Below, in pieces: positions 8,928 to 11,900 of a DNA stretch of 64,000 bases. The translations under genes were made by a program, and so were the position numbers. A model generated the notes under the pieces. It searched no databases, was not told where the DNA came from, and was given only the letters and a program-made list of their open reading frames with translations. Each line of letters starts with the position of its first letter. The stretch's first letter is position 1. Origin of the DNA: Owenia fusiformis (lineage: Eukaryota > Annelida > Polychaeta > Sabellida > Oweniidae); the NCBI GenBank assembly GCA_903813345.2, contig CAIIXF020000007.1, forward strand, positions 5,335,730-5,399,729, written 5' to 3'.

Positions 8928-11900
8928 TTAGGTACAGCAAGCTTTCTTCTTCTCTCCTGAATTGTCTGTAGGAGCTACAGTAATTGTCTGTACGTTGTTG
9001 CTAGGTGAATTTTCATCATCTGGGCTATCCCGAATTTGTTTCTGGGAAACTATTTTGTATATTTCTGCAATGAAAAATGACATTTTGTTATACATTTCTG
9101 AAAGTATATGTATAAATATATATACTATTAAATGTGTATTTTAAAATATAACACTTGCTACCAAGTAAAAGTAGTCTATTTCTAGTTTATGGATTTCACA
9201 AAAATAATTATTTCAATTACACCGATTCTAGATAAGATTTTAGATCAATGATGCTTTGTTACAATGTTATCAGTTTGTTTACATGACATGACATCTATGT
9301 TCTATTTGCAAATAAATTGAATGAGATAAGCAAGCTCTTCACAATTGTTTGATAGCGTGGGAATGACAACAGTTATAGACGAGACATTAACATGACAAAA
9401 TGTCACCACGTTTCGAAGGTCATTGAAGGTCAACCGAAGGTCAAATCTCAAAAATAAAGTCAGATTTGAATATTTGAATACTTGTAGATGATTTTACAAA
9501 AATTGATCAATTTGAAGCAAGTTCGAAAAATACCTTTTTTGACCTTGAGAAAGTCATTGAAGGTCAAATCTAAAATCTAAGTCAGATGATTGTGAAAAAA
9601 ATGTAAACCAGTCTAAACAGTACTTGTTAAGTAAGTGGTAGTTGTAAGATTTTGTTACAAGAGTTTGTTACAGACACAATCCACAAAAAAGTTGGAGACC
9701 ATAACAATATGTCACCTAACCCTACTATCACACCAAACTAGTTCTCACTACGTTCTCGAAAACGGGCTTCAACTGTGTACGGACGGACTGGACCTACTAA
9801 GAACCGTTTGGGATCTATTTACAAACTTCATTGAACGTACTCGAACGGGTAGGTCCTCTAGAACTCAGACAATGCTCAAAATGTTCTCGTGGTCGTCACG
9901 TTCTACAATTAGAACGAGTGAAAACGTACTAACGACGAGCTGGACGTCCTACGAACGAAACCGTCGTACTTCAATCCTACTAGGGACGTTTTAACAACGA
10001 GTTGAACTGTCTGAGGACGTGTTTAGAACGAGGTAGAACTAATTGCAAACGGGTTTAAACTGATTAAGAACGTATTTAACACTGCTTATGAACGAGTTAG
10101 CAAAAATATAGCTATCACACCAAACAAGTTGCCACTGCGTTCTCCAAAACTGGTTTTAAACTGTGTGCGAACGGAATTAACGTAGCTGCAACTTTCTAAG
10201 GTCTATTTACGAACTTTATGAACGTTCTCAGACGGGAATGTGATTTTAGAATTTTGAATCGATTCAAAATTCGATGGCGACCATGCCGTTCTGTAATCAG
10301 GTCATGTTGACCTTCTAGACTAAGGGACGCGTTCTACTACGTTGCACACCGACGTGGTGCGACCTGAACGAACTGCGAACGAGATGGATGTATTGAAGAC
10401 TGTTTAAGAACGAAGAAGCTAATTATTTCAGACATATTTCCCGACCACATCCAGATTGAGCCCGTTTTACGACGTTTTCGTAGGACTGGCAAGAACGGGT
10501 AAGAACTAGTTTGGTGTGATAGGGGGGTTAGTGGTGACATAATAATACTGTATGATCTGTTATCGGAATATAATTTAAACATGAAACAATTGCAAAGTTT
10601 TTCAACATTTGATTTCTCTAAAAATCAGAGTAAAACGCATTCTACCCTTCAATATTTTTGTCATTGTTTTTGATAGTCTGGCATAACAATATAATTTAGA
10701 ATGTCGATTACATCCCTGTTTTCCTATTTTCCTGCTGATTCTACTCTCTTTTGTATTTTAAAACAGTATGACCATGACTTATACAAAACTAATAATATTC
10801 ACCTGTTAGTATATTCTGAAAGGCTGTCTCTACATTTGTGGAGTCTAAAGCCGAAGTCTCTATAAATGATAAGTTATTCTTTTCTGAAATAAAGAAACAA
10901 ATAGACATTATTTTTCAGGGAAAAAAACTACTAATGATATATACAGAGGCAGCTTGTGAAGGTACATGGGAAATCATCTGAGAATAAACATAGTTGCTTA
11001 ACGGTTTGAGTTGATAGAGTAATTTACCATTATCATGAATTTAAAAGGGTAATACACCCGTGAAATGTTGTAAGACCAATCAAGAGATGTCATTTCAAAA
11101 ATCGGGGTATTAACATGACAGGATGATACTACAATGTAAGTTATTGAAAATGGTTACAAAAGTGACAGTCTTAACAATTCGTTACAGAACCTGACTGCTG
11201 ATGTTGATCAAAACAAAAGCTCAACCATGTGAAGTAAAAATGGGGGACGAAATAAATGTCAACCTAAGTTACAAACCTGCAAAAGCCTTGGCCTCATCTG
11301 TTGGAACAGCCCGTAGATGCCTCAAATCACTCTTGTTTCCAACTAACATGATGACTATATTGTTATCTGCATGGTCACGCAGTTCCTTCAACCATCGCTC
11401 TACATTTTCATAAGTTAAATGTTTGGCTATGTCATACACTAGTAGTGCTCCCACTGCACCACGATAGTACCTGAAAATACATTTTTGAATTAGTAATGGG
11501 CAGACTTCAATGGCACGGAGACCTAATTTCATGTTTGTGGGTGTTTATTGTACATGTTCAATGTTCATTAAATTCATACATCAAGTCCTTGCCTGGTGTT
11601 CTCCCCATTCTCTTTCTAACACAGGTTCAGATAAGGGAACACTGATAGGCAAGACTGAGAAACTTAAGGGGGAGATCACACCAATTTCTCCAATTTTAAA
11701 AAGCATGTTTCAAAAGTAAAAAGTATGGCATCGAGTAAAGATGGAAGGGTGGTTGAGTTGATGTAGTTTCTCCCTGTATATCAGACTTATTTTTGTCATT
11801 TTGAAATAGGATTTCAGCGATAATTTGAATTTGAGAAAAATTCTAGTGAGATCACCCTATACTTACGCACTGGTGATGGCCCTGTATCTCTCTTGTCCAG

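Follow-up and report, generated by a model that had tools for sequence, protein, structure and literature searches.

A MITE-like 808-bp element of Owenia fusiformis with an internally repeated left part and a short-range 10.5-bp spacing of words

MITEs and other non-autonomous DNA transposons with terminal inverted repeats (TIRs) are short and non-coding, have inverted ends and occur as uniform copies, and the element described here is like them in each of these respects. Typical MITEs are shorter than 808 bp. In bivalve genomes, MITEs take up a considerable share of the sequence, as the relevant passages of PMC10294476 state. For maize, the parts of PMC3260210 that deal with the Ac/Ds system (hAT) describe a transposase, that of Ac, which binds AAACGG hexamers. 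A third system is the KolobokP transposon, a composite element whose end unit, a long terminal direct repeat (LTDR), also occurs solo. According to the sections of PMC9587614 on these units, solo LTDRs are non-autonomous, have short inverted ends of their own and are common in bivalves; the units measure about 450 or 660 bp, have 5'-RR/YY-3' ends, and their target duplications mostly span 3-4 or 4-5 bp.

The locus considered here lies in a stretch of 64,000 nucleotides of Owenia fusiformis, which was analysed as a whole and is called the window. It holds a small family of elements that are probably non-coding, non-autonomous TIR DNA transposons of a MITE-like kind, at the long end of that range, in which the left terminus and about 320 bp of the body were repeated before the copies spread and which would be moved in trans. 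The GC content of the window is 34.9%. Nine stop-free frames were scanned and some were found to be pieces of animal-type genes: leucine-rich repeats and a TIR domain are encoded by frames at 60.6-63.3 kb, C2H2 zinc fingers by one at 22.1-22.6 kb. Another dispersed repeat family occupies four places (4004-4612, 26757-27014, 36891-37331 and 62129-62569) in both orientations, the listed pairs being 78-89% alike; its copy at 62.1 kb overlaps the end of the leucine-rich-repeat frame and precedes the TIR-domain frame. The copies of the 808-bp element are the following.

9720 to 10527, forward strand: copy A, 808 bp, CCCTACTATC...GATAGGGGGG (blastn and alignment)
49339 to 50880, forward strand: copy B, 808 bp plus a nested insert (alignment)
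49817 to 50541, strand not given: nested insert in copy B, 725 bp, within a 9-bp duplication CAACTTTCT at 49808-49816 and 50542-50550
58465 to 59272, forward strand: copy C, 808 bp (alignment)
59469 to 59973, forward strand: copy D, with three deletions (29, 247 and about 35 bp); a poly-G run stands at the expected right end (alignment to A)

Copies A, B and C align over 808 columns without a single gap, B after removal of its nested insert, with identities of 784/808 (A-C), 759/808 (A-B) and 756/808 (B-C); they thus diverge at 3.0 to 6.4% of sites. Copy D was cut at 59965, inside the poly-G run, and the figure of about 35 bp for its last deletion depends on the placement of these Gs. The first-pass annotation, which had described three copies of exactly 808 bp and a deleted fourth, is therefore confirmed, for several dispersed copies of equal length within this one window; it is to these four copies that the uniformity of the family refers. 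A, B and C lie in different flanking sequence, and a search of the joined flanks gave no match linking these flanks to each other. The insert of copy B has relatives of its own, in inverted orientation, at about 16687-17362, and its ends (TATTCCAAC.. and TAGTTCAAC..) are loosely inverted. Between copies C and D lies an imperfect hairpin element (59343-59470, ends GTCGGCTACC), which adjoins the left end of D.

The termini of the element, as placed by inverted alignment in copy A, are as follows.

9725 to 9756, forward strand: left terminal inverted repeat, 32 aligned columns
10492 to 10522, reverse strand: right terminal inverted repeat, with its core at 10504-10522

These inverted ends are near-perfect. 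The left end CTATCACACCAAACTAGTTCT... scores 47 against the reverse-complemented right end, with a maximum of 27 in 200 shuffles. Outside the TIR core, the copies have CCCTA in common at the left and GGGGG at the right, the five outer left bases having two differences from those of the right end. Places resembling the TIR with at most three mismatches number 10 in the window, compared with 0.01 expected, and all of them are inside the four copies.

The triplets that adjoin CCC and GGG are TAA/TTA in A, TTA/TTA in B, TTA/TAA in C and CAA/TCA in D, the right one of D being deduced from what follows the poly-G run. Read toward the element, the outermost base of the flanking triplet is T on seven of the eight sides. 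PIF/Harbinger elements have a 3-bp TWA duplication as their signature and Tc1/mariner elements a TA duplication, while piggyBac and Kolobok have TTAA as their target. An identical TWA triplet on both sides is found in one of the four copies (B), and TA on both sides, with the ends taken as ACCC/GGGT, likewise in one (A TA/TA, B TT/TA, C TT/AA, D CA/CA); TTAA occurs on none of the eight sides, and an 8-bp direct repeat as in hAT was seen by eye beside the ends of none of the four. There is consequently no consistent target-site duplication among A, B, C and D, and for this reason no superfamily is assigned and cut-and-paste is a mode of movement that we infer. The flanks of copy A form an inverted repeat, with TATGTCACC on both sides, of which a diverged paralogue exists at about 25960-26080 (left side 83% over 41 bp; right side 17 bp, E 0.19). 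This paralogue hints that the palindrome around A may predate the insertion; it is weak on the right side and uninformative as to a duplication of bases. Repeated units with AGATTTGAACTTCTGA-like words are found several in a row at 24862-25450, and one stands beside copy A at 9447-9551. At 25458-25929 there is a large, probably recent hairpin, in which a spacer of 66 nt separates the arms of a perfect inverted repeat of 203 nt.

The element has little coding capacity. Over six frames, the longest stop-free stretch common to A, B and C has 62 codons, and the longest single one, in B, has 109; three of the stop-free frames, which overlap A, B and D, were compared with Pfam, and no family was found to E 0.1. 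Neither a transposase nor an autonomous relative was seen. An origin as an RNA gene or SINE was also considered and rejected: Rfam gave no match up to E=1 for 9600-10650, and ARAGORN, with bacterial settings, no tRNA in the window. The single strand of copy A folds with a z of -6.83 relative to 20 shuffles, at least in part due to its paired ends. As for relatives elsewhere, an 18-letter TIR pattern (17 fixed bases) picks out four stretches in viral contigs and 15 in genome contigs, none of which carries the element, since blastn between copy A and each of the 19 loci aligns 18 to 25 columns at the pattern only, that is, the pattern plus a few bases. A 24-base internal pattern has no occurrence in the viral contigs, and distant blastn gave no plasmid or phage match at E 0.1. 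These collections of viral, genome-contig, plasmid and phage sequences are not animal genomes as such, and absence from them says little. Narrow word searches of the literature for the TIR letters and for dimeric or duplicated MITEs gave no match, although the idea may be in print.

The interior of copy A can be divided into two halves, delimited by aligning them with each other.

9725 to 10111, forward strand: half 1, 387 bp
10112 to 10522, forward strand: half 2, 411 bp, starting with the internal left terminus (10112-10130)
10249 to 10272, no strand assigned: 24-bp perfect palindrome GAATTTTGAATCGATTCAAAATTC in half 2 (blastn)

It had been suggested that the left terminus recurs inside the element at about 10106 and that some 120 bp after it parallel the left end. 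The recurrence is real, but its position is 10112: there the internal terminus CTATCACACCAAAC is found in A, it recurs exactly in C at 58857, and in B it has three mismatches in 19. The parallel also holds. BLAST aligns the first 126 columns of the halves at 74.6% identity, and their local score of 92, compared with at most 32 in 500 shuffles, places the internal match above background. Beyond 126 bp, the global score of the halves is 65, whereas shuffles of 11-bp blocks reach at most 42 and those of 22-bp blocks 51 (500 each), and none of 251 rotations attains it (best 55). The middle part scores 57, which, with blocks of 1, 5, 11 and 22, is attained by 0, 0, 0 and 1 shuffles in 1000. By these alignments, homology between the halves is established: it is strong up to 126 bp and, in half 1, extends more weakly, though clearly and collinearly, to about position 320. 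The palindrome in half 2 is matched at 24 of 24 positions in B (50602-50625) and in 22 of 23 columns in C (58995-59017); no role was found for it.

Even in their best part the halves differ by about 25%, as compared with 3.0-6.4% among the copies, and the repetition is therefore older than the spread of the copies. The preferred reading, a non-autonomous element enlarged from within, could accordingly be pictured in the following way. A head-to-tail repetition of the left terminus and some 320 bp of the body would have arisen within the element first, and the enlarged unit would then have spread as one piece to give the present copies. A transposase encoded elsewhere would bind the inverted termini of about 20-30 bp, excise the whole 808-bp unit and reinsert it, the movement thus taking place in trans.

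A special case of this reading, not exclusive of it, is a true fused dimer: two complete elements lying head to tail, of which the inner right end has decayed while the outer ends are used. We consider this credible but somewhat improbable. In A and C, the internal left terminus repeats 14 bases of the left end without a difference, and the collinear similarity to about position 320 is what a dimer would give. Of the inner right end to be expected in a full dimer, there may be a weak trace at best: the last 24 bp of half 1, before the internal joint, are among the six of 740 24-mers of A, themselves included, that score equally well against the right terminus, and the inner-end GAACNAGTT resembles words elsewhere in the body. 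Furthermore, the final 67/98 bp of the halves score -4, a value reached by 34, 33, 87 and 100 of 1000 shuffles (blocks of 1, 5, 11 and 22), so that their relatedness does not appear clearly above that of shuffled sequence. The data would be explained equally well by a duplication, in tandem, of some 320 bp at the left and by a dimer with a lost inner right end. The proposal of the first-pass annotation, a fused dimer that moves as one unit, is thus upheld in one part: three copies with unrelated flanks have the same 808 bp and the same internal joint, as expected if a unit with two related halves spread as one. The fusion of two complete elements is not upheld, given last 67/98 bp that are not clearly alike and an inner right terminus that does not convince. 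The internal left end and the right end together delimit a unit of about 416 bp that could in principle move alone; it was not seen alone in the window, and no free half-unit was found there either (blastn to E 0.01 and the scan for TIR-like places).

The second peculiarity of the element is its wealth of short CpG-containing words. GAACG, in which the body had been noted to be rich, indeed occurs 13 times in A, compared with 0.42 times per 808 bp elsewhere in the window, and the observed/expected ratio of CpG is 1.44 in A and 0.72 elsewhere. A more general word, RRACK, was chosen after inspection of the sequence.

9735 to 10507, forward strand: 37 RRACK words, at short range spaced close to multiples of 10.5 bp, plus 13 in the opposite orientation

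Distances between these words cluster at 10-11, 20-22, 31-32, 42, 51-53 and 62-64 bp. Among pairs at most 70 bp apart, 67 of 99 are within 1 bp of a 10.5-bp grid, while 5000 random placements average 22% and go no higher than 46%, none reaching the observed value. The peak is sharp (0.68 at 10.5 compared with 0.48 at 10.0 and 0.33 at 11.0), and the spacing exists in each half, the observed value being reached by 0 of 2000 placements in half 1 and 1 of 2000 in half 2. In a word-free scan, for which the distances were picked after the word analysis, the 22 highest of 626 scan windows all overlap A, B or C.

Over the whole element, coherence is weak. The best period is 10.35, which 35 of 2000 placements reach for A and 107 of 2000 for C, and the power at exactly 10.5 is 0.23; half 1 alone peaks at 5.2 (7/2000) and half 2 at 10.45 (2/2000). 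The phase therefore shifts along the element. In a scan of three-letter words (313 scan windows), half 2 alone gives no strong period (best z 2.99), a true tandem array (37.6-39.0 kb) outscores the element in four scan windows and other repeats come close, which indicates that signals of this size also arise from ordinary repeats. A tandem array with a period of 69 bp lies at 37925-38752.

A decayed tandem repeat of about 10/21 bp is a sufficient cause of the spacing and likelier than an array of binding sites. In the preferred reading, the body carries a degenerate repetition of about 10.5/21 bp, made up of RRACK and a T-rich spacer. When the words are masked, the spacers are still periodic at 11 bp (z 3.3) and over the grid overall, where none of 500 shuffles attains the observed value. 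At loose settings, Tandem Repeats Finder scores a 21-bp array at 82 and a 32-bp array at 101 in A, and a 21-bp array at 82 in C, with a maximum of 79 in 100 shuffles. A coding origin of the period, in the form of an alpha-helix repeat, is disfavoured, there being at most 62 stop-free codons in A, B and C together and no Pfam match.

Alternatively, the words could be functional, helically phased sites to which the transposase or a partner protein binds, an idea comparable to the AAACGG hexamers of maize Ac/Ds. The sharp 10.5-bp grid, its presence in both halves and the predominance of one orientation (37 versus 13) would suit such an array. However, the phase is lost over the whole element, the spacers are periodic as in a decayed tandem repeat, the word was selected with the sequence in view, and in copy D 38% of 40 pairs are on the grid; the low z of half 2 points the same way. 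Moreover, there is no sign of selection on the RRACK words, which vary among the copies about as much as the remainder (15 of 188 variable columns inside words and 66 of 620 outside, p=0.33). Such binding sites are unlikely. It could further be imagined that CpG words about one helical turn apart were selected to load the transposase or its partner on one face of the DNA, that the internal left terminus provides a second loading site and that the duplication raised mobility by doubling the array; this extended proposal we regard as distinctly doubtful. A narrow literature search on helical phasing gave a match on IS2. Finally, that the element is a solo LTDR of a KolobokP transposon is very improbable, because its 808 bp, its 5'-CCC/GGG-3' (or ACCC/GGGT) ends and its lack of a consistent duplication disagree with the units described in PMC9587614, with which it would share non-autonomy and short inverted ends.

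The element is of an ordinary kind. Its left part is genuinely repeated inside it, and its words show a 10.5-bp spacing that is unusual and short in range. The family is small, and the old repeat of one end and of the body inside the element persisted through a later spread. If the spacing is functional, it would link helical phasing to the loading of a transposase in an animal transposon; if it stems from a decayed minisatellite, it would be an ordinary case of tandem repeats in a MITE-like element.

Compared with typical MITEs, the element differs in the left terminus repeated inside, in the 10.5-bp spacing of words through much of its body and in the absence of a clear target duplication. 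Internal repeats are known from mollusc MITEs of the pearl family, to which it is likened by description, not by sequence, on the basis of the pertinent passages of PMC5139131. The solo LTDRs of KolobokP do not fit in length, terminal bases or target duplications, but as protein-less units with short inverted ends of their own they are alike, and they offer a precedent for a terminus that is directly repeated inside a larger unit (PMC9587614, in its account of these units). With maize Ac/Ds, as portrayed in the corresponding parts of PMC3260210, the element shares the existence of non-autonomous copies and of several short CpG-containing words, AAACGG there and RAACG here; it differs in having no 8-bp target duplication, a different TIR and no known transposase, and its words extend through the whole body, whereas those of Ac/Ds are located in the terminal 200 bp or so.
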